NCBI GenBank assembly: GCA_020161855.1
Contig: JAIUNJ010000001.1
Span: 310,001-374,000, forward strand
Origin: Pseudomonadota bacterium
GTDB lineage: Bacteria > Pseudomonadota > Alphaproteobacteria > Rhizobiales > Aestuariivirgaceae
Length of the DNA stretch: 64,000 nucleotides
Direction: 5' to 3'
How positions within the stretch are numbered: position 1 is the stretch's first letter; every line of letters starts with the position of its first letter. This document shows, in pieces, positions 9,941-61,300 of this stretch. The position numbers and the translations under genes were made by a program. Under the pieces are notes generated by a model. That model made no database searches and was not told the origin of the DNA. It saw only the letters and a list, made by a program, of their open reading frames with translations.

Positions 9941-10776
9941 GATCCTGTCCCTGGAGCAATATCGCCGGCCACAATATCATAGAGTTCGTCTGTCACCTCA
10001 GGCCGGATTCCGAACCACAATTCAAATCCCGGAACAGCCTGATGCAGGAGCATTCCGAGGCCGTCGGTTGTCAGGCAGCCCGCACGCTGGGCGTCAGCCA
10101 GAAATGGGGTAAGCAGAGGAACATAGCTGATGTCTGTGACAAGGGCGCCGCGCGGAAGCATGTCGAAAGCAACGGTTAGCTTTGCCGTGTCGGCGATCCC
10201 GGCTGAGGTTGTATTGATCAAAAGGCCGCAGTCTCTGAGGTGATCGTCGGCTTCATGAAGTGCCGCCGCCGCCATCCGCGATCCAAAACTCTCCGCAAGC
10301 TCGGCGGCACGGGCGACTGTCCGGTTTGCGACAGTGACCTGAGCCACCCCTTCCTGCAGCAATTCATCGACAATGGCGCGGGCTGAACCGCCGGCACCCA
10401 GCATGACGACCCTGCGGCCCTTGAGATCAAGCGACGGATTTCGCCAGCGCAGGTTCTGGACAAAGCCGTAGCCATCGCTGGAGGTCGCGCTGAGTTCGCC
10501 TCGAGAAAAGTAGACGGTGTTCACAGAACCGATGCGGCGGGCTCTTTCATCGAGATTTGGGATCAGGCTGGCTGCCCGTTCCTTGTGAGGAAGGGTCACA
10601 TTGCAGCCTGCAAAACTTGCCTCCCGCATGCCGGCAAGAAATGCCTTCAAGCCATCGGGTGCCACCTCAATCTTGTCATAACTACCATCAATGCCGTGGC
10701 GTTTCAGCCAGTATCCATGGATCAGCGGAGAGCGCGAGTGTTTGACCGGGAAACCGATGACGCCTGACCTGATCAT
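9937..10776 (-). CDS. aroE: Shikimate dehydrogenase
   Basis: This 279-residue enzyme reduces 3-dehydroshikimate to shikimate with NADPH. The N-terminal substrate domain has GFPVKHSRSPLIH and GCNVTLPHKE, which carries the catalytic Lys. The Rossmann domain has VVMLGAGGSARAIV and NRTVARA, and the C-terminus has DGLGMLLHQA. The ATG at 10776 is chosen because the conserved IGFPVKHS follows immediately and it overlaps the maf stop (ATGA); a frame open to 10902 adds non-family sequence. Position within maf-aroE-coaE-dnaQ is a common arrangement in this bacterial class. Confidence 0.95.
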   Translation of the reverse strand: MIRSGVIGFPVKHSRSPLIHGYWLKRHGIDGSYDKIEVAPDGLKAFLAGMREASFAGCNVTLPHKERAASLIPNLDERARRIGSVNTVYFSRGELSATSSDGYGFVQNLRWRNPSLDLKGRRVVMLGAGGSARAIVDELLQEGVAQVTVANRTVARAAELAESFGSRMAAAALHEADDHLRDCGLLINTTSAGIADTAKLTVAFDMLPRGALVTDISYVPLLTPFLADAQRAGCLTTDGLGMLLHQAVPGFELWFGIRPEVTDELYDIVAGDIAPGTGS

Positions 10777-11357
10777 GTTTGCAGTTCTCCATGGGAGCGC
10801 AAGAAATCGAGCAATCGCATCAGTGGCAAGCCAAGCATGGTGAAATAGTCGCCGGCAATGTGCTTGAAAAGCTGTGTGCCCAGGCCTTCGAGCCGGTAGC
10901 ATCCGACTGTCTGCAGCACGTTATCTCCCTCCCCTTGCAGGTAGTGCCTCATAAATGCCAGTGAAAAATCACGCATTTGCAACTCTGCGCTGTCAGTGAA
11001 CGACCACAGGATTTCGCCGTCCTGACAACAGGCCACAGATGAATAAAGCTGGTGCACGTCGCCACGAAGCCTGAGAAGCTGCGCTTCGGCTTCAGGCAAT
11101 GACCGCGGCTTATGCAGCGTTTCACCATCATGCTCCAAAGTCTGGTCCGCGCCGATCACAAGGGCTGAGGGACTTGCCGTGGTGACGTGTTGCGCCTTGC
11201 CGGTGGCAAGCGCTAGGCTCAGCGCACGTGGTGAGAGTTTCGCGAGCTCCTGTTGGGCTTCTTCTTCATCAAAATGGCTCGCGATCGTCTGAACCTCAAC
11301 GCCCGCGTCTTTCAGGATACGCAGGCGTATGGTGCTCTTTGAAGCGAGATAGATCAT
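10773..11357 (-). CDS. maf: Maf-like nucleotide pyrophosphatase
   Basis: This 194-residue Maf family protein hydrolyses non-canonical or modified nucleoside triphosphates to monophosphates. The N-terminal IYLASKSTIRLRIL is the SxSxxR-type substrate loop, ALVIGADQTLE contains the conserved Asp, KPRSLPEAEAQL is the KP motif region, and GCYRLEGLG lies near the end. Start choice is uncertain: ATG at 11357 is used, but a TTG at 11381 is in frame. It is the first gene of the leftward operon and its 5' end borders the candidate origin of replication. Confidence 0.88.
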   Translation of the reverse strand: MIYLASKSTIRLRILKDAGVEVQTIASHFDEEEAQQELAKLSPRALSLALATGKAQHVTTASPSALVIGADQTLEHDGETLHKPRSLPEAEAQLLRLRGDVHQLYSSVACCQDGEILWSFTDSAELQMRDFSLAFMRHYLQGEGDNVLQTVGCYRLEGLGTQLFKHIAGDYFTMLGLPLMRLLDFLRSHGELQT

Positions 11358-11726
11358 TCCGGCAATTAGTCGGACTTTCAATCCTGGTGAAAGCAGAACT
11401 TATGAACAGGGGCGTGGATATTGGGCAGAAATCCCAGTCGCAGCCGCCGTCGCTCGCCATTGCCCACAGGTGGGTGTGGATGACTGGCAATCATATTCAC
11501 AGGCTATCCCAAGGGACGGAAGATGGGCATGTCATCGTGCAGAATTATTGGCGGAAGGCCGGAGCGGCCAGATCGTTAAGAAAGTCTTAACAGATTCATT
11601 CAAAGCCGATCTTCATGGGGAAGCCCTTCGGCGCAACGGCAAAGCCGCGGCATCATTTTCCTTGCTATCCACAGGCCAACAGTATCATCAGACTTAGACT
11701 CATTTACTCTTTGTTAAGGAACAGGC
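11358..11726. other. Candidate chromosomal replication origin (oriC) between maf and hemE
   Basis: This 369-base gap codes for nothing supported. It holds five DnaA-box-like 9-mers: TTATGAACA (11400-11408), TTGCCCACA (11460-11468), TCATCCACA on the minus strand (11475-11483), ATATTCACA (11493-11501) and CTATCCACA (11665-11673); four differ from TTATNCACA at one position, the second at two. It also holds a perfect CtrA-type site, two GANTC methylation sites (11593-11597, 11697-11701) and an AT-rich stretch near 11650-11720. The origin of Caulobacter, and reportedly of other alphaproteobacteria, lies beside hemE. Leftward genes are on minus and rightward genes on plus, as expected for divergent forks. 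The assignment is inferred. Confidence 0.65.
11576..11590. promoter_or_regulatory. CtrA-type binding site TTAA-N7-TTAA in the origin gap
   Basis: TTAA at 11576-11579 and TTAA at 11587-11590 are separated by exactly seven bases, matching the full CtrA consensus. In Caulobacter, CtrA bound at oriC blocks replication initiation. The site lies about 135 bases upstream of hemE, so it could also regulate hemE transcription. Confidence 0.6.
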
Positions 11727-12764
11727 GTGGGAAAAGCCCTTCTTGATGTCTTGAATGGAAGGATGCCGGAGCGAAGGCCGGTATGGTTGATGCGGCAGGC
11801 TGGTCGCTATCTTCCTGAGTATCGCGCGGTGAGGGAGCAAGCCGGCTCCTTTCTCAATCTTTGTTATGATCCCGAGCTTTCGGCGGAGGTGACTTTGCAG
11901 CCCCTGCGCCGGTATGATTTCGACGCGGCAATTGTCTTTTCTGATATTCTGATTGTGCCGCAAGGCATGGGTCTTGAATTGAGGTTCGTCGAAGGCGAGG
12001 GACCGGTGTTGCAGACTGTGTCAGATGCAGCGTCGGTGAGGGCGTTGCAGGACGGAAGCGGCAGTCCGGCATTCAAAAGTATCTGTAATACCTTGTCGCG
12101 GGTTCGTCCAAGATTGCTGGGTCATCAAACCCTGATTGGCTTTTGCGGGGCGCCCTGGACCGTTGCGAGCTATGCCATAGAGGGCGGCAGTTCTGACCGG
12201 AAGATTGCGCGGCAAGTGGCCGAGGAGGCTCCTGATTGGTTCGTCGAACTGATCGCGCGGCTCGTCGAATCTTCGACGGCCTATCTTCTGGCGCAGATCG
12301 AGGCTGGTGCAGAGGTTGTGCAGATTTTCGACAGCTGGGCCGGCGAGCTGCCGGGTCATCTACGAGAGCGCTGGGTGATTGCGCCGATTAATGCGATGGT
12401 TGAAACAGTGCGGCGGGAGCATCCAGGTTTTCCTGTAATCGTTTTTGCGCGCGGGTTCGGCGATGATCATGTGAAGGTAGCGCGAGGCACGGCAGGATCA
12501 GCGATTGGTGTCGAGCAGGGCTTGAACCTGGGTGCGTTGTTGGAGGCACTTCCGGCTGGTGTGGCAGTTCAGGGGAATCTGGCGCCCGAGATGTTGCTTG
12601 GTGATGAGGACGCAATGGTTGCCAAGGTAGCTGAGCTTGTGAATTCGATGCCAATCGACCGGCATATCTTCAATCTGGGTCATGGAATCTTGCAGCAGAC
12701 AGATCCCGATCGTGTTTTGCGCATGCTCGAGGTTATCCGCGGCGTCGACGGGGGTCAGCCATGA
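11727..12764 (+). CDS. hemE: Uroporphyrinogen decarboxylase
   Basis: This 345-residue enzyme removes four carboxyl groups from uroporphyrinogen III to make coproporphyrinogen III in haem synthesis. The N-terminal PVWLMRQAGRYLPEYR is the family signature, followed by FSDILIVPQGMG with the catalytic Asp, then GFCGAPWTVASYAIEGG and the C-terminal FNLGHGI. The GTG at 11727 has AAGGA six bases upstream. It directly flanks the candidate origin and its stop overlaps the hemJ ATG by four bases, which couples two haem enzymes. Confidence 0.97.
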   Translation: MGKALLDVLNGRMPERRPVWLMRQAGRYLPEYRAVREQAGSFLNLCYDPELSAEVTLQPLRRYDFDAAIVFSDILIVPQGMGLELRFVEGEGPVLQTVSDAASVRALQDGSGSPAFKSICNTLSRVRPRLLGHQTLIGFCGAPWTVASYAIEGGSSDRKIARQVAEEAPDWFVELIARLVESSTAYLLAQIEAGAEVVQIFDSWAGELPGHLRERWVIAPINAMVETVRREHPGFPVIVFARGFGDDHVKVARGTAGSAIGVEQGLNLGALLEALPAGVAVQGNLAPEMLLGDEDAMVAKVAELVNSMPIDRHIFNLGHGILQQTDPDRVLRMLEVIRGVDGGQP

Positions 12765-15992: not shown

Positions 15993-16008
15993 TGTTTCAC
16001 GTGAAACG
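15993..16008. other. parS centromere site 1 (mnmE-mnmG gap)
   Basis: The 16-mer TGTTTCACGTGAAACG matches the bacterial parS consensus TGTTTCACGTGAAACA at 15 of 16 positions. It starts directly after the mnmE stop codon (the TGA ends at 15992). ParB should bind here and nucleate the segregation complex; parA and parB begin about 2.5 and 3.4 kb downstream. Confidence 0.9.
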
Positions 16009-17927: not shown

Positions 17928-18553
17928 GCCCGTCGCTGCCGCTGGGCGATGCGGATCTCGAGCGCTGTAATGTTTCACGTGAATCACGGGTCAGGCTCGA
18001 GCGTTTTGTCGCCCTGCTTCTGCAGTGGCAGGCCCGCATCAATCTCATCTCGCCGGCAACTGTTCCCGATGTCTGGCACAGGCACGTTCTCGACAGCCTG
18101 CAACTCGTGCCGCTTCTCCCGGCGGGGATCACGGGTTTTGCCGATCTTGGCTCGGGTAGTGGCTTTCCGGCCCTGCCATTGGCGATCGCGACCGGCCTTG
18201 AAGCTCATCTGTATGAGTCGAATGGCAAGAAGGTTGCTTTCCTGCGTGAGGCGTTGCGCCTCTGCCAATGCCGTGGCCTTGTCCATCAGGTCCGGCTGGA
18301 ACAGCTGAAAGGCACCACGGTTCCCAAAATCCAGCTGGTGACAGCGCGGGCCCTGGCGCCGCTCACCGAGCTTCTCCTGCTGGCCGAACCGTTCCTGGCC
18401 GCTGGTGCCGTCGCCCTATTTCACAAGGGACAAGATGTTGATGCTGAATTGACCGAAGCCTCAAAATCTTGGAGAATCCAAGCCACTAGGTTCCCCAGTT
18501 TGACTGATTCTCGAGCTGTCATCCTCAAGGTGGAAGAGGCCCGCCGTGTCTGA
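17924..18553 (+). CDS. rsmG: 16S rRNA (guanine-527-N7)-methyltransferase RsmG (GidB)
   Basis: This 209-residue SAM-dependent enzyme methylates G527 of 16S rRNA. The Rossmann SAM site is [17 protein letters not shown], preceded by [32 protein letters not shown] follows later. The ATG overlaps the mnmG stop (ATGA). A parS-like 16-mer is embedded in codons about 15-21, where the encoded residues look unconserved. The final bases overlap the parA GTG start by eight bases, so rsmG and parA are probably translationally coupled. Confidence 0.95.
17971..17986. other. parS centromere site 2 (inside rsmG)
   Basis: TGTTTCACGTGAATCA matches the parS consensus at 15 of 16 positions (A to T at position 14). 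It lies within the rsmG coding region, about 560 bases before parA. Sites in coding sequence near parAB are known for this system. It is the second of two parS sites within 2 kb. Confidence 0.87.
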
Positions 18554-19364
18554 CGTCCAAAGCAATCGACCCCGTATTCTTGCTGTTGCCAACCAGAAGG
18601 GCGGCGTCGGCAAGACAACAACTGCCATCAATCTCGGAACGGCGCTTGCGGCCGTTGGCGAGAAGGTGCTGATCATCGATCTCGATCCGCAGGGCAATGC
18701 CAGCACCGGCCTCGGCATTCACCGCACGCCGCAGCAAAAGTCGTCCTATCATGTGTTGATCGGCGAGGCCGAACTGAACGATGTCATCGTCGACAGCGGC
18801 ATCCCCAATGTCGATTGCGCGCCCTCGACAATCGATCTGCTTGGAGCCGAACTCGAGCTCGCTGATTTTGAACGCAAGACCTACCGCCTGTCCGACGCCA
18901 TCCTGCGCATGGCAACGATGGGTGGTGTGGCCCGGAGCTACTCCTACATTCTCGTCGATTGTCCGCCGTCGCTCAATCTGCTGACGATCAACTCGCTCGC
19001 TGCAGCCGATGCGATTCTGGTGCCGCTGCAGTGTGAGTTCTTCGCGCTGGAAGGGCTGTCGCAACTTCTCAAGACCGTGGAGCGGGTGAAGGCCACGCTC
19101 AATTCGCGCCTGATCATCCAGGGCGTCGTGCTCACCATGTATGACCGCCGCAATTCGCTCTCCGATCAGGTGGCCGAAGACGTGCGGGCGGTGCTGGGCG
19201 AAAAGGTCTACCAGACGGTCATACCGCGGAACGTCCGCGTCTCCGAAGCGCCCTCCCATGGCCGCCCCGTTCTGCTCTATGACCACAATTGCGTGGGGTC
19301 TCAGGCCTATATCAAGCTCGCGTCCGAGGTCATCCGGCGTGAGCGCGAGCTGCGGGCCGCCTGA
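18546..19364 (+). CDS. parA: Chromosome partitioning ATPase ParA (Soj)
   Basis: This 272-residue deviant Walker ATPase binds DNA non-specifically as an ATP dimer and moves ParB-parS complexes. Seen are ANQKGGVGKTTTAINL (deviant Walker A with the signature Lys), DLDPQGNASTGLG, LVDCPPSLNLLT and VLTMYDRRN. The length and the lack of an N-terminal HTH fit chromosomal rather than plasmid ParA. It starts at GTG 18546 within the end of rsmG; parB follows 44 bases later. Two parS sites lie just upstream. Confidence 0.96.
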   Translation: MSDVQSNRPRILAVANQKGGVGKTTTAINLGTALAAVGEKVLIIDLDPQGNASTGLGIHRTPQQKSSYHVLIGEAELNDVIVDSGIPNVDCAPSTIDLLGAELELADFERKTYRLSDAILRMATMGGVARSYSYILVDCPPSLNLLTINSLAAADAILVPLQCEFFALEGLSQLLKTVERVKATLNSRLIIQGVVLTMYDRRNSLSDQVAEDVRAVLGEKVYQTVIPRNVRVSEAPSHGRPVLLYDHNCVGSQAYIKLASEVIRRERELRAA

Positions 19365-19408: not shown

Positions 19409-20272
19409 ATGACACAGGCTCAAAAGCGTAGACTGGGCAGGGGGCTTGCAGCTCTGATCGGCGATGATGTGGCCGAAGAAGCCGTTGTTCAGGATGTGCG
19501 CAGCCTCAAGCATGTGCCGATCGAGCTGATCCATGCCAATCCGCTCAATCCGCGCAAGCACTTCGCCGAAGAGGATCTCGAGTCGCTTGCCAGGTCCCTC
19601 AAGGACAAGGGCCTGCTGCAGCCCATCGTGGTCCGTCCGGCAAAAGCAGGCCAGAGCGGCTATGAGATCGTTGCCGGCGAACGGCGCTGGCGCGCGGCCC
19701 AGCGCGCCGCGATCCATGATGTGCCGGTGATTGTCCGCGATCTTGATGACCGCGAGACCCTAGAGATCGCCCTGATCGAGAACGTCCAGCGCAGCGATCT
19801 CAATCCGCTGGACGAAGCTCGTGCCTACAAGCAGCTGATCGACCAGTACGGCTATACGCAGCAGCAGCTCGCCGATTCGATCGGCAAGAGCCGCAGCCAT
19901 ATAGCCAATACGTTGCGCCTGCAGACTTTGCCCGAAACGGTTCTCGCCCATATCGAAAGCGGCGAGCTTTCTGCCGGCCATGCGCGTACACTCGTCGCCA
20001 CGGATAGCCCCCAGGAACTTGCCCAGAAGATCATCAAGCTTGGGCTTTCGGTGCGCCAGGCGGAAACACTCAGCCGCGATACCAGTGCGCGTGGGAAAGC
20101 GAAAACCAAGCCCGAGAAAGACGCCGACACGCGCGCGCTCGAGAAGGTCCTGTCCGATTCGCTGGGGCTCAAGGTTGATATCCAGCACAAGGGGCCAGAG
20201 GGCTCCGTTGTCTTGACCTATACGTCGCTCGAACAGCTTGACGAAGTCGCCCGGCGTCTTGGCCGCCGCTGA
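19409..20272 (+). CDS. parB: Chromosome partitioning protein ParB
   Basis: This 287-residue parS-binding CTPase organises the origin region for segregation. It begins RLGRGLAALIGDD, the typical ParA-activating N-terminus. The CTP-binding ParB/Srx domain has NPLNPRKHF, QPIVVRP and VAGERRWRAAQRA; IENVQRSDLNPLDEARAYK leads into the HTH with GKSRSHIANTLRL. The C-terminal dimerisation domain ends in LDEVARRLG. It is convergent with holA, with only three bases between stop codons. Confidence 0.96.
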   Translation: MTQAQKRRLGRGLAALIGDDVAEEAVVQDVRSLKHVPIELIHANPLNPRKHFAEEDLESLARSLKDKGLLQPIVVRPAKAGQSGYEIVAGERRWRAAQRAAIHDVPVIVRDLDDRETLEIALIENVQRSDLNPLDEARAYKQLIDQYGYTQQQLADSIGKSRSHIANTLRLQTLPETVLAHIESGELSAGHARTLVATDSPQELAQKIIKLGLSVRQAETLSRDTSARGKAKTKPEKDADTRALEKVLSDSLGLKVDIQHKGPEGSVVLTYTSLEQLDEVARRLGRR

Positions 20273-57613: not shown

Positions 57614-58080
57614 ACCGCCGTTTTCTCTCCGCCCTTGCCATTGCCGCATTGGCCTCGCCGCTGGCAGGCTGCGGCGATGACGGCCCGCCGGATTATCTCG
57701 CCATCGCCGGCGGCGGCATCACCTTCAATTACCGCTACAGCCAGGCGACGATGGTGGTCGTCGGCAAGCAGCTCACGCCGATGCCGGAGGGTGCCCGCGT
57801 CGAAGCGCTTTTCGATATCCCCGGCGCCAAGGACCGCGAAGTGGTGTCGCGCCCGGTGATGAAGGGCAAGCTCACCTACAAGCTCGAGAGCAGCTATCTC
57901 ACCGGCATCAGGAAGGGCGAGCCGCTCAAGGTCACGCTCCGCCTTGTCGCTGCCGATGGCCAGGAGCTTGACCGGGTGGAGACGCAATATACTTCCGATG
58001 TCGACCAGTCGACGCTGCCGTCCAAGCCGCTGGTCGATCCGTCGAAGCCCAACTACGTGCCGCAGCTGGAGAACCTCTGA
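57610..58080 (+). CDS. Uncharacterised lipoprotein
   Basis: This 156-residue protein has a lipoprotein signal peptide: charged MNRRF, hydrophobic LSALAIAALASP, lipobox LAGC with Cys at residue 21. The mature part is beta-like (DYLAIAGGGITFNYRYSQATMVVVG, then LKVTLRLVAADGQELDRVETQY) and resembles no family I can name. It overlaps the LivH-like gene by four bases, so it is cotranscribed and may be a periplasmic accessory of that permease. It is overlapped at the end by the kinase-like gene. Confidence 0.8.
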   Translation: MNRRFLSALAIAALASPLAGCGDDGPPDYLAIAGGGITFNYRYSQATMVVVGKQLTPMPEGARVEALFDIPGAKDREVVSRPVMKGKLTYKLESSYLTGIRKGEPLKVTLRLVAADGQELDRVETQYTSDVDQSTLPSKPLVDPSKPNYVPQLENL

Positions 58081-58676
58081 ACCGCGTCGCCATCTTCGGC
58101 AATGCCGGCGCCGGCAAGTCGACGCTGGCGCTGCGCCTGCAGCGGATCACCGGCCTGCCGCTCCATTCGGTCGACAAGATGCAGTTTCGGCCGGGTGGAG
58201 AGCCCATTCCGCACGCAGAATATCTCGCGGCCCATGCGGCCCTCATCGGCACGGAGCGCTGGATCATCGACGGCTTCGGCACGGAGGAAACCCTGTGGCA
58301 GCGCTTTGCCGCCGCCGATACGCTGATCCATGTCGATCTGCCGCTGGCGCAACACTACTGGTGGGTGACGAAGCGCTTGGCAAAGGGGCTCTTCGCTGAT
58401 CCGCCGGGCTGGCCGGAAGGCAGTCCGTTGTGGAGCGGCTCTCTCCAGAGCTACCGCGTGATCAGTGCCTGCCACCGCGAGATGACGCCGAAGTATCGCG
58501 CCCTTGCCGCCCGCGACGACGGCTCGCAGCAGCTTCACCGCCTGCGCTCCCCTCTGCCGCGATCCGTGCTTTCCTCGCGAAGGCAGAGGTGCAACAGCGG
58601 CAGTAAGCTATTCGATCGTCACCGCCGTGCCCGCCGCCTTTTAAAGGCGATCTGGTTTCCCGCGTCGCAGGTTTGA
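58077..58676 (+). CDS. FlaR-like P-loop kinase, non-ATG start and C-terminal frameshift
   Basis: The frame encodes RVAIFGNAGAGKSTLALRL (P-loop near residue 8), LHSVDKMQFRPGG and WIIDGFGTEETLW, as in small adenylate-kinase-like topology modulation proteins. No ATG precedes the P-loop; CTG at 58077, overlapping the lipoprotein stop, is the only plausible start. Near the end it reads HRLRSP and then Arg/Ser-rich sequence to 58676. Removing two bases (one CT of CTCT at about 58551-58554) restores RSPAAIRAFLAKAEVQQRQ ending at 58606, as in relatives. This indicates a frameshift, real or from sequencing. Confidence 0.62.
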   Translation: MNRVAIFGNAGAGKSTLALRLQRITGLPLHSVDKMQFRPGGEPIPHAEYLAAHAALIGTERWIIDGFGTEETLWQRFAAADTLIHVDLPLAQHYWWVTKRLAKGLFADPPGWPEGSPLWSGSLQSYRVISACHREMTPKYRALAARDDGSQQLHRLRSPLPRSVLSSRRQRCNSGSKLFDRHRRARRLLKAIWFPASQV

Positions 58677-58854
58677 TGATAGCCCGCCCGGCTAACCGGA
58701 ACTGGAAGGGCCGTTAGCAGCGTGGCGATTAAGCGTGCAAGATCACGGGATTATATGGAAATGCCCGCCGTATTCTTGAATTATACTAATAGAATCCTTA
58801 CAACACTGTGATAGTGGGGAGAATGACCATTCTTGTGCCGAGACGGATAACTCT
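58677..58854. other. AT-richer gap before the unknown gene pair
   Basis: No gene is supported. The first 50 bases look like GC-rich flank; from about 58740 the composition turns AT-rich with ATTATATGG and TTGAATTATACTAATAG. TATACT (58782-58787) could serve as a -10 element for the gene at 58855, but no good -35 is seen. A 29-residue frame at 58722-58811 lacks a ribosome-binding site and was not called. Confidence 0.4.
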
Positions 58855-59406
58855 ATGAATTTAGAACAAAAGAAGCGTTGGCTCGAGCTGCCAGACGTCT
58901 TGGCCCCATCACCCAATGATAAGGCCGTGCTAATTCAGCTTTCGATCTCACCTGAGTTCGTAAATAAGAACGCCTATATTAAGCGACGAACCCCCATATT
59001 TCAGCTGTGGACGCACGTTATTGGCGAACAACCTCCAATCAACAACATCAGCCGCGAATTCATTAAAGATCCCCCAACTTTGATGACGCTTGGTAGCGCA
59101 ACAGCGCTGTTTATGGGCGTAAAGCGGCCATATCACGACGACGACGATGGCAAAGAGGTTGGCGTGTACGTACTGAAGCCGACCCGAACGCTGCGTTACG
59201 AGCCAGACATGGCGTGCGTTGCACGTGCATGTAATGCGCCGATAAATTGCGTGTTATGCGTTCAGGTCAGATTTGACAAAGCTTGTCAAGTTCCGGACAA
59301 GGATATATATGGTATGATTACAAGGTTGGAATTCGTGCCGTGTGACGCTGGTGCGTATCATCTGCCAAAAGCACACAATCAACGGTATACAAAGCAACTT
59401 TGGTAA
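58855..59406 (+). CDS. Hypothetical protein, AT-rich cassette gene 1
   Basis: This 183-residue protein belongs to no family I recognise. Seen are a charged start (NLEQKKRWLELP), an acidic patch (YHDDDDGKEVG), a Cys-containing stretch (CVARACNAPINCVLC) and a C-terminal MITRLEFVPCDAG then HNQRYTKQLW. No signal peptide or membrane segment is present, so it is probably cytosolic. Codons use more A and T than those of all other genes in the window, which suggests acquisition from elsewhere. The next gene starts five bases after its stop. Confidence 0.72.
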   Translation: MNLEQKKRWLELPDVLAPSPNDKAVLIQLSISPEFVNKNAYIKRRTPIFQLWTHVIGEQPPINNISREFIKDPPTLMTLGSATALFMGVKRPYHDDDDGKEVGVYVLKPTRTLRYEPDMACVARACNAPINCVLCVQVRFDKACQVPDKDIYGMITRLEFVPCDAGAYHLPKAHNQRYTKQLW

Positions 59407-59410
59407 GGCG

Positions 59411-59818
59411 ATGGATCACGCATTGAAGATTGAGCTCGGTTCGTTGGCAGGTCACTACGTGCCAACCGCCGTGTATTTCCAAGATTCAGATTGTGTCGAA
59501 TACGTCACGCACGACGCACTTTGCGTGTACGATCGCGTGGATAGCTTTCTCACGGTCATTTATGACGAGTTCCAAAAGACGATCATTGGCTTCAAGCTCA
59601 AGGGTTTTTCAAAAGCAGTGAAGACTGTTCTCGGCGCCAAGGGTTCCCATGACCAGTTCCTGCAACTTGTGAAGGTTATCGAGCAGGAATGCCAAAAGCT
59701 TGGCGATAACATGTTTGACGAGAAGCGCTCTTATCTTGCGGTCCAGAAAATGGCCGCTAACGATAATAACTGTGTGCTAGATAGAGAAGTTCTATTGCCT
59801 CTTTTGAAGGCCGCTTAG
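59411..59818 (+). CDS. Hypothetical protein, AT-rich cassette gene 2
   Basis: This 135-residue protein has no family I can name. The centre (RVDSFLTVIYDEFQKTIIGFKLKGF) has the beta-rich pattern of small DUF2283-like domains, which is only an impression. The rest is helical (QFLQLVKVIEQECQKLG). The ATG at 59411 is used because TAAGG overlaps the stop of gene 1 and gives good spacing; an earlier ATG at 59342 would overlap gene 1. It shares the AT-rich codon use of gene 1 and is surely cotranscribed with it. Confidence 0.7.
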   Translation: MDHALKIELGSLAGHYVPTAVYFQDSDCVEYVTHDALCVYDRVDSFLTVIYDEFQKTIIGFKLKGFSKAVKTVLGAKGSHDQFLQLVKVIEQECQKLGDNMFDEKRSYLAVQKMAANDNNCVLDREVLLPLLKAA

Positions 59819-60286
59819 ACCTTACCAAGTTACAGAATCTTCTGTCTTTTCCGTACTGCTTGCCTTCTTGCGCAGTTCCCATCCTCTCATAATTTCGACG
59901 ACCTCATAGGCTTCGTCCTTCTGCAAATGACAATCTGACCCGTCCAAACTATTTGCCTTGATGACCGGGGCGGTAAAGTCACGTTGGGTATGTTCAATGT
60001 TTCGCTCTAGATCTCCTATTTAGTCTAATAGTCTTACGGCACTTGGTCGCTAGCGTGCTGGGCACCAGAGATTGTCTATTGAGAAAAGTGGCCCCCAGCA
60101 TTCTCACACGTCTTGATGCGTATGATACATGGGGGCGGCTTGTTTCAAGAACAGGGCGGAAAGACTTTCCGCCCCGGTCCTCTCTTCCTGTTCTTTGTAG
60201 GCCACAGCATCCGGACCGCTTCCTTCCGCCTCGTCGTCCTCAACCGGCTTGCAGGACTGTTGCTGGCGGACGGAAATCCATCCGGA
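59819..60286. other. 468-base region without a supported gene
   Basis: The first 240 bases are AT-rich like the two genes before it; from about 60060 the composition becomes GC-rich again. A near-perfect palindrome of two 10-base arms around one A (GGGCGGAAAG at 60154-60163 and CTTTCCGCCC at 60165-60174) lies about 110 bases beyond the end of the Gfo/Idh gene and could act as a terminator for it, but only a weak T tract follows on minus. Open frames here lack starts or ribosome sites and are not called. Confidence 0.45.
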
Positions 60287-61300
60287 CTAGATCTGCACGT
60301 CGCGGCCCTCGCGCACCGACTTGATCCAGGCATCCAGCACCTTGGCGTTGCCGAGCGAATCCTGCGGCGAGAGCGGCACCGGCTTGCCGTGGATGACGGC
60401 ATCGGCAAAGGCCTCGACGGTCAGCTGGTAGTGGTCGTTGGCCGGCAGCAGTTCCTCGCTGCGCTTGCCGTTCTTGTCGACCGTGACGATGAGCGCTTCG
60501 GGCACGAAGTTTCCGAGGCCCAGCACGAGACCGCGCGGCACCTCGATCATGCCGTTGCGGCCGATGACGCTGTAGTGCCCGAGCCCCGTTGTCTCGAAGG
60601 AACAACTCACCACCGCCATGCGTCCGCCCGGGAATTCCAGCACAGCACCATCGGCGACATCGACGCCAAAGCGCTTGTCGAGCTTCTGCCAGCCCCTGAT
60701 GCTCAGGGGCTCGGCCTGCATCACCATGCGGGCGGAACTGACGACATAGCATCCCATGTCGAGGAGCACGCCGCCGCCCAGTTCCGGGATCATGCGCACA
60801 TTCTTCGGATCAGGCGGGCTCATCATGTTGTTCGAGAGATGCGATCGTACCTCGAGGACTTCGCCGATCACACCTGAGTCGATGATCTCGCGCACCCGGG
60901 CATGTTGCGGGTGAAACCGGTACATGAAGCTTTCCATGAGCGGCACGCCCGCCTGTTCGAAGGCGGCAAACATGGTGGCGACTTCTGCGGCATCGAGCCC
61001 GAGCGGCTTTTCGCAAAGCACCGGCTTCTTGGCCTTGGCTGCCTTGAGCGCCCATTCCGCATGCATCGAATTGGGCAGGGGGATGTAGATCGCATCGATG
61101 GCGGGATCGGCGATCAGTTCGTCATAGCCCATGATCCTGACGCCTGCTTCCTCGCCGTATCTGCGCCTGGCCTCGTCCGGATCGCGGCTCGCCGTTGCCG
61201 CCAGAACGCCGTTTCTCGATTTGCGGATGCCCGGCATGATCGCGTCCCGTGCAATCCACGAGGTTCCGCCCAGAACGCCCCACCGGATCTTGTCTGTCAT
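60287..61300 (-). CDS. Gfo/Idh/MocA family oxidoreductase (2)
   Basis: This 337-residue protein has the Rossmann start WGVLGGTSWIARDAIMPGI, the catalytic Lys motif LCEKPLGL and the typical ESFMYRFHPQHARVREI, then the C-terminal GGGVLLDMGCYVVSSARM block. These enzymes oxidise sugars, polyols or dihydrodiols; this type with SFMYRFHPQ resembles trans-1,2-dihydrobenzenediol/xylose dehydrogenase-like members, but the substrate is unknown. The ATG at 61300 is used. It stands alone and is unrelated in sequence detail to the first Gfo/Idh protein at 3885. Confidence 0.9.
   Translation of the reverse strand: MTDKIRWGVLGGTSWIARDAIMPGIRKSRNGVLAATASRDPDEARRRYGEEAGVRIMGYDELIADPAIDAIYIPLPNSMHAEWALKAAKAKKPVLCEKPLGLDAAEVATMFAAFEQAGVPLMESFMYRFHPQHARVREIIDSGVIGEVLEVRSHLSNNMMSPPDPKNVRMIPELGGGVLLDMGCYVVSSARMVMQAEPLSIRGWQKLDKRFGVDVADGAVLEFPGGRMAVVSCSFETTGLGHYSVIGRNGMIEVPRGLVLGLGNFVPEALIVTVDKNGKRSEELLPANDHYQLTVEAFADAVIHGKPVPLSPQDSLGNAKVLDAWIKSVREGRDVQI

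Follow-up and report, generated by a model that had tools for sequence, protein, structure and literature searches.

A predicted hemE-linked chromosomal replication origin in an alphaproteobacterium of the family Aestuariivirgaceae, with a C-first triplet array at the DnaA-trio position

The divergent intergenic gap between maf and hemE in a Pseudomonadota bacterium of the family Aestuariivirgaceae (positions 11358-11726, 369 bp) is predicted with high confidence to be its chromosomal origin of replication (oriC), of the hemE-linked alphaproteobacterial kind. Such a location, proposed in a preliminary description of the same DNA, is supported by a turn in GC skew, clusters of DnaA boxes, CtrA-spaced sites, and the linkage of hemE to parS in relatives. 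The kind of origin is known, and its variation here concerns the neighbouring gene, the CtrA-spaced sites, and the repeat proposed for unwinding. All positions refer to the window, i.e. the whole 64-kb stretch that was analysed (contig C7:310001-374000), which belongs to a genome assembly of 3.36 Mb in 19 contigs with 92% completeness. The four closest named HemE records share 53-60% identity with the HemE of this genome and carry the labels Hyphomicrobiales, Rhizobiales, or Alphaproteobacteria.

The maf-hemE gap and its counterparts in relatives

The gap is bounded on the left by the ATG of maf (11355-11357, minus strand; gene 10773-11357, TIGR00172/PF02545) and on the right by the GTG of hemE at 11727 (gene 11727-12764, plus strand, TIGR01464). 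Its previously given extent holds with maf read from this ATG, whereas an alternative upstream TTG would move the maf start to 11381. A hidden gene in the gap was considered and rejected, the candidate being a 120-aa open reading frame (11228-11590) with no Pfam match. To the left of maf lie aroE and coaE on the minus strand and, farther away, secB on the plus strand. To the right, hemE is followed by a UPF0093 gene (which we take to be hemJ), rho, mnmE, mnmG, rsmG, parA (18546-19364, plus strand, PF13614), and parB (19409-20272, plus strand, PF02195/PF17762/PF23552). Two parS-like sequences, TGTTTCACGTGAAACG (15993-16008) and TGTTTCACGTGAATCA (17971-17986), each with one mismatch, lie between hemE and parA, which bears out the parAB-parS cluster described earlier at 4-9 kb from the gap. 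Elsewhere in the window, positions 58001-61000 have a GC content of 54-55%, compared with approximately 61-65% on either flank, and are perhaps an acquired stretch.

Six DnaA-box-like sites were found in the gap, all within two mismatches of TTATCCACA, and four of them are within one mismatch of TTWTNCACA. Five lie in its maf-proximal part: TTATGAACA (11400-11408, plus strand, one mismatch to TTWTNCACA), the weak sites ATATCCACG (11413-11421, minus strand) and TTGCCCACA (11460-11468, plus strand), both with two mismatches to TTATCCACA, TCATCCACA (11475-11483, minus strand, one mismatch), and ATATTCACA (11493-11501, plus strand, one mismatch to TTWTNCACA). The sixth, CTATCCACA (11665-11673, plus strand, one mismatch), lies near hemE and is the anchor of the unwinding module proposed below. 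Both the cluster and the degeneracy of its boxes had been anticipated, and indeed no perfect DnaA box occurs in the gap; at least four sites were present in none of 39,206 overlapping 369-bp segments from 400 kb of C7 outside the gap (mean 0.145, maximum 3). The exact CtrA site (TTAA-N7-TTAA, 11576-11590) and the two GANTC sites of the preliminary description were likewise recovered. The former has a single other exact match in the same 400 kb; the latter, at 11593-11597 (probably a CcrM-type methylation site) and 11697-11701, compare with an expectation of 0.65, which is weak evidence taken alone. The gap is richer in A and T (48.5%) than stretches of the contig (approximately 38%), and its AT-richest 40-bp step (11678-11717, 70% AT) is a probable unwinding element; no long AT tract was found within the gap.

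A HemE match was obtained in 64 of the 69 family genomes searched, including the genome studied here, and the locus was examined in 57 of the 63 others. The ppsR gene (DUF299) adjoins the gap in 34 of these loci, maf occupies that place without ppsR in 19, and neither was found there in four. The distance from hemE to ppsR or maf in the relatives is comparable to the 369 bp seen here. No match to ppsR (PF03618) was found anywhere in the 92% complete genome under study, so that maf is the neighbour of its gap. Among 80 named loci, a divergent ppsR or maf neighbour lies within approximately 0.8 kb in 70, neither does so in nine, and in L016 they lie elsewhere. DnaA-box words recur in this position: in 82 gaps upstream of hemE (with L015-L082 thinned to every sixth), TCCACAG occurs in 54, versus 1.5 for random stretches of the same loci, which are mostly coding, and the corresponding counts are 35 versus 0.7 for TATCCACA and 21 versus 0.5 for TTATCCACA.

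For further comparison, the 138 gaps whose upstream sequence ran to 300 bp or more were reduced to 86 non-redundant ones, comprising 15 ppsR-less gaps from the genus, 29 other gaps from the family (including those of genus members that keep ppsR), and 42 from named loci, of which L003-L006 at the least are closely related. First-order Markov resamplings served as randomised controls for gap motifs, the trio rule, triplet arrays, and counts of CtrA, GANTC, and IHF sites. TTAA pairs showed a preference for the 7-bp spacing over any other spacing from 0 to 15, with 11 versus at most two in the genus gaps, 15 versus at most five in the other family gaps, eight versus at most four in the named loci, and four versus at most one in a sample of 30 from across the class. 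Exact CtrA-spaced sites are present in 7/15 genus gaps and 9/29 other family gaps, and in the 86 gaps together they number 34 versus 1.6 in randomised sequences, with 183 versus 115 for GANTC. The IHF consensus was not enriched in the same set (1 site versus 0.88). CtrA itself is encoded in the genome under study (418.9 bits; cut-off 350).

The triplet array beside hemE and the DnaA residues

The hemE-proximal box CTATCCACA is followed by the 3-bp GC spacer GGC (11674-11676, plus strand) and then by a period-3 array, CAA CAG TAT CAT CAG (11677-11691, plus strand; other strand 3'-GTT GTC ATA GTA GTC-5'), which stands in the DnaA-trio position and is overlapped by the AT-richest step. The repeat in this place across the family is 5'-CAN-3' (3'-GTN-5') rather than 3'-GAT-5', and it may take part in strand opening. 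In-phase CAN triplets exceed resampled sequences with z values of 5.6 in the 15 genus gaps and 10.2 in the 29 other family gaps, compared with 0.3 and 1.7 for CTN, the canonical type. In 28 of the 30 class samples (G144 and G106 were omitted for doubtful hemE starts), C-first triplets of any kind reach z 6.6, CAN 3.3, and CTN 0.9. The 42 named loci give a less clear-cut signal, with z values of 3.6 for CAN, 5.9 for NAN, and 4.5 for opposite-strand CTN. Opposite-strand CAN gives 2.3 in the genus, -0.6 in the family, 0.2 in the named loci, and -0.3 in the class, and no CA signal was found in control stretches farther upstream (-300 to -180; z -0.8, 1.3, and 0.8). A single CCAACA-type consensus for all origins was rejected, being matched exactly in 7/138 gaps and with one mismatch in 50/138.

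Within 1.26 Mb of the genome under study, an array follows within 16 bp of only 1/95 boxes with at most one mismatch, namely the one in the gap; however, among two-mismatch boxes an array follows 79/1643 (four at a spacing of 3), a rate that predicts four or five of 95. The combination of box and array is therefore unremarkable within this genome alone, and the case for it rests on the relatives. Strong arrays, defined by a score that was set after the data had been seen and is passed by 47/116, have a box within 16 bp upstream in 23/47, versus a mean of 6.3 and a maximum of 13 for places drawn at random from these gaps. In 15/23, the distance between box and array is divisible by 3, a count that is not to be read as a probability because many of those sequences are related.

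It is possible, though somewhat doubtful, that the origin is correctly placed while the array serves as a CA-rich leader in the hemE messenger, as a translation or promoter element. Its location on the coding strand, 36-50 bp before the hemE start, is in keeping with such a role, as is the centre base of the would-be trio strand, which is mostly T, a base that impairs B. subtilis DnaA. The box that precedes so many arrays, at a spacing so often divisible by three, argues instead for a link with DnaA, as do the CTA-type arrays that some other alphaproteobacteria (L014, G101, and G109) have in this position.

As a second alternative, a canonical DnaA-trio (3'-NAN-5') at another place in the gap could be the actual unwinding repeat, but this appears unlikely. 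The unwinding-system rule of Pelliciari 2021 asks for a DnaA box with at most two mismatches and at least three consecutive 3'-NAN-5' triplets within 16 bp, and this loose rule matches 46/86 gaps against a randomised mean of 20 and a maximum of 29, an excess that is partly due to the boxes alone. The conserved hemE-proximal box, CTATCCACA, has one mismatch but is followed by no more than two consecutive triplets of this type, and the published rule gave no match there. In the window, the best match relies on a weaker, two-mismatch box of the opposite strand and lies apart from the AT-rich part. The z values of NTN triplets are 0.4 in the genus gaps (n=15), 0.0 in the family gaps (n=29), and 1.4 in the class samples (n=28), sets in which C-first triplets do stand out.

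The C-first array can be set beside the residues with which DnaA reads the trio. In B. subtilis DnaA, according to PMC10721633, Arg202 and Glu228 contact the trio G and Asn187 the trio A; C is tolerated in place of this A, whereas G, T, and U slow strand separation. The DnaA of the genome under study was aligned with structure 8btg, presumably that of B. subtilis DnaA, whose residues agree with the published numbering. In this numbering it carries Tyr187, Lys202, and Glu228. Tyr187 was found in all 30 family DnaAs fetched (from 66 genomes with a match), and the class sample (n=30) comprises 22 Tyr, five Phe, one His, one Arg, and one Gln at this position, with Lys202 and Glu228 in 30/30. The residue aligned with 187 is Asn in 2z4r, which we take to be T. 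maritima DnaA, and Gln in 1l8q/3r8f (A. aeolicus). Family DnaAs score approximately 180-204 bits against PF00308, below the approximately 215-242 bits of most of the class sample, and the initiator is therefore divergent. Clade-wise co-variation of residue 187 with the centre base of the array, as first framed, was rejected because Tyr or Phe at 187 is nearly class-wide (27/30) and arrays outside the family are a mixture of CTA, CAA, CCA, and CAT.

The altered second-base-reading residue is compatible with the loss of a fixed adenine, as a correlation within one class. We tentatively propose, as a plausible reading that falls short of a probable one, that the Alphaproteobacteria use a re-lettered DnaA-trio, in which the captured strand would read 3'-G(T/A)N-5' (mostly GTN in the family) instead of 3'-GAT-5', Asn187 would be replaced by Tyr or Phe, and the guanine-reading pair would be kept as Lys202 and Glu228. 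No published alphaproteobacterial DnaA-trio was found in the titles and abstract beginnings searched; the supplementary tables of the survey of such unwinding systems may cover origins of this kind.

GC skew and the chromosomal place of the origin

The cumulative GC skew over 80 kb around the gap has its minimum at position 11159, approximately 200 bp from the gap. Along C7, the sign of the skew changes from minus to plus at the gap, with 7/9 sampled stretches negative on the left and 10/11 positive on the right (Mann-Whitney p 0.00018), whereas no lasting change comparable to this one was found on C7 at dnaA, which lies 226 kb from the gap (C7:95 kb; L002 901-2544). The skew pattern named in the preliminary description as refuting an origin here, a minimum elsewhere such as next to dnaA, did not appear in the sampled part of the genome, which leaves out approximately 2.1 of 3.36 Mb. 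Of the 10 other contigs that were sampled in three or more stretches, eight keep a single sign, and six further contigs were sampled with one stretch each. C19 changes very weakly from minus to plus (-0.010, -0.003, +0.007). C14 (G000 C14:1-90000) passes from plus to minus (+0.035, +0.009, -0.022, -0.038, -0.052), a terminus-like course that makes it a candidate terminus region. The small contigs C9 and C10 consist of N throughout.

Two relatives lack a sharp skew turn at hemE. In G002, of the same genus, the hemE contig is negative in 12/12 stretches on either side of hemE, while the large contig C1 gives positive values in 13/15. A protein map of sampled G002 stretches shows the hemE block reversed with respect to C7, whereas the maf-side blocks (C2:828-831 kb and C2:986-992 kb) keep the orientation of C7 and are inverted relative to the hemE block; a single match at C2:862 kb (to C7:82 kb) is reversed with respect to C7 and thus has the same orientation as the hemE block. 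Compared with C7, C2:811-992 kb of G002 appears rearranged, with inverted blocks near the origin on the maf side. Because these maf-side orthologues are inverted relative to the hemE block, an inversion is proposed in G002, after which its skew would not yet have re-equilibrated. In G057 (closed, 7.18 Mb), signs are mixed over 2.36-2.56 Mb with a local minimum off hemE (2.363 Mb), and the far-field skew is compatible with an origin in the neighbourhood of hemE.

Linkage to the partition sites is more regular. All eight relatives selected for assembly quality have a parS match with no more than one mismatch at a distance of 4-9 kb from hemE, on the hemE side; stray two-mismatch matches occur elsewhere in two of them (G041 and G057), and a backward parS control pattern gave one match each in G001 and G041. 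The position of dnaA in those relatives varies from approximately 84 kb away to other contigs. A true origin at another site (close to dnaA, on C19, or in sequence outside the sample), with the gap upstream of hemE serving as a promoter region controlled by DnaA and CtrA, is highly improbable: it could draw on the distant dnaA, the missing skew turns in G002 and G057, the weak sign change of C19, and the extent of unsampled sequence, but in the genome under study the skew turns at the gap rather than at dnaA, parS is kept near hemE while dnaA wanders, and the box words recur in hemE gaps.

Relation to known origins and a possible course of initiation

The predicted oriC resembles those of Caulobacter crescentus (Cori) and Rickettsia prowazekii, which, according to PMC1914354 and PMC4468827, likewise occupy a gap of several hundred base pairs upstream of hemE that contains CtrA sites and weak DnaA boxes. 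It differs from both in that the COG1806/DUF299 gene (ppsR) is absent from the gap flank and has no match in the 92% complete genome, and in that IHF sites are not enriched in the relatives; Cori, moreover, has five CtrA sites, compared with one exact site here. The linkage of the Caulobacter and Rickettsia origins to hemE and DUF299 is published in PMC1914354, and the missing COG1806/DUF299 flank is not disqualifying because the same source also reports origins with other flanking genes. Both hemE and maf belong to the indicator genes of Ori-Finder (PMC3794950).

With respect to CtrA, a review (PMC4468827) describes CtrA sites as unseen in origins outside Caulobacter and possibly Rickettsia, and the S. 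meliloti origin is given as having none in PMC4433202, in contrast to the CtrA-spaced sites of the family gaps. In-silico CtrA sites have, however, been published for Wolbachia-group origins (PMC1914354), and CtrA binding adjoining the Hyphomonas origin is reported in PMC7200025. Since these cases are already in print, CtrA-spaced origin sites in a family whose closest named relatives carry the label Hyphomicrobiales are an extension and not a first instance. The S. meliloti oriC is likewise the chromosomal origin of a member of the Hyphomicrobiales, and reportedly it too lies beside hemE.

The arrangement beside hemE also parallels the basal unwinding system (BUS) of Bacillus subtilis, in which, according to PMC8287927 and PMC10721633, a box is followed by a short GC spacer, a period-3 array whose triplets begin with G on the array strand, and then AT-rich DNA. 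The middle base of the B. subtilis trio is a conserved A, whereas that of the array here is T (or A), and its Asn187 corresponds to Tyr in the DnaA of the genome under study. In the proposed course of initiation, DnaA would fill several of the weak boxes in the gap, and a DnaA filament would extend from the hemE-proximal box across the GGC spacer onto the strand carrying the array. This filament would open the AT-rich stretch up to hemE, allowing helicase loading and the departure of forks in both directions. CtrA at 11576-11590 would block initiation outside the right stage of the cell cycle, GANTC methylation may mark replicated DNA, and ParAB acting on parS 4-6 kb away would separate the new origins.

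The origin itself is an ordinary and well-supported find. Beyond its location, the analysis points to the probable opening place of a hemE-linked oriC, where the repeat is one that the published box-trio rule misses. That an altered repeat in the origin goes together with an altered residue in DnaA is open to testing by existing strand-separation assays, and if the re-lettered trio is true, the code of single-strand recognition would have shifted in origin and initiator jointly.
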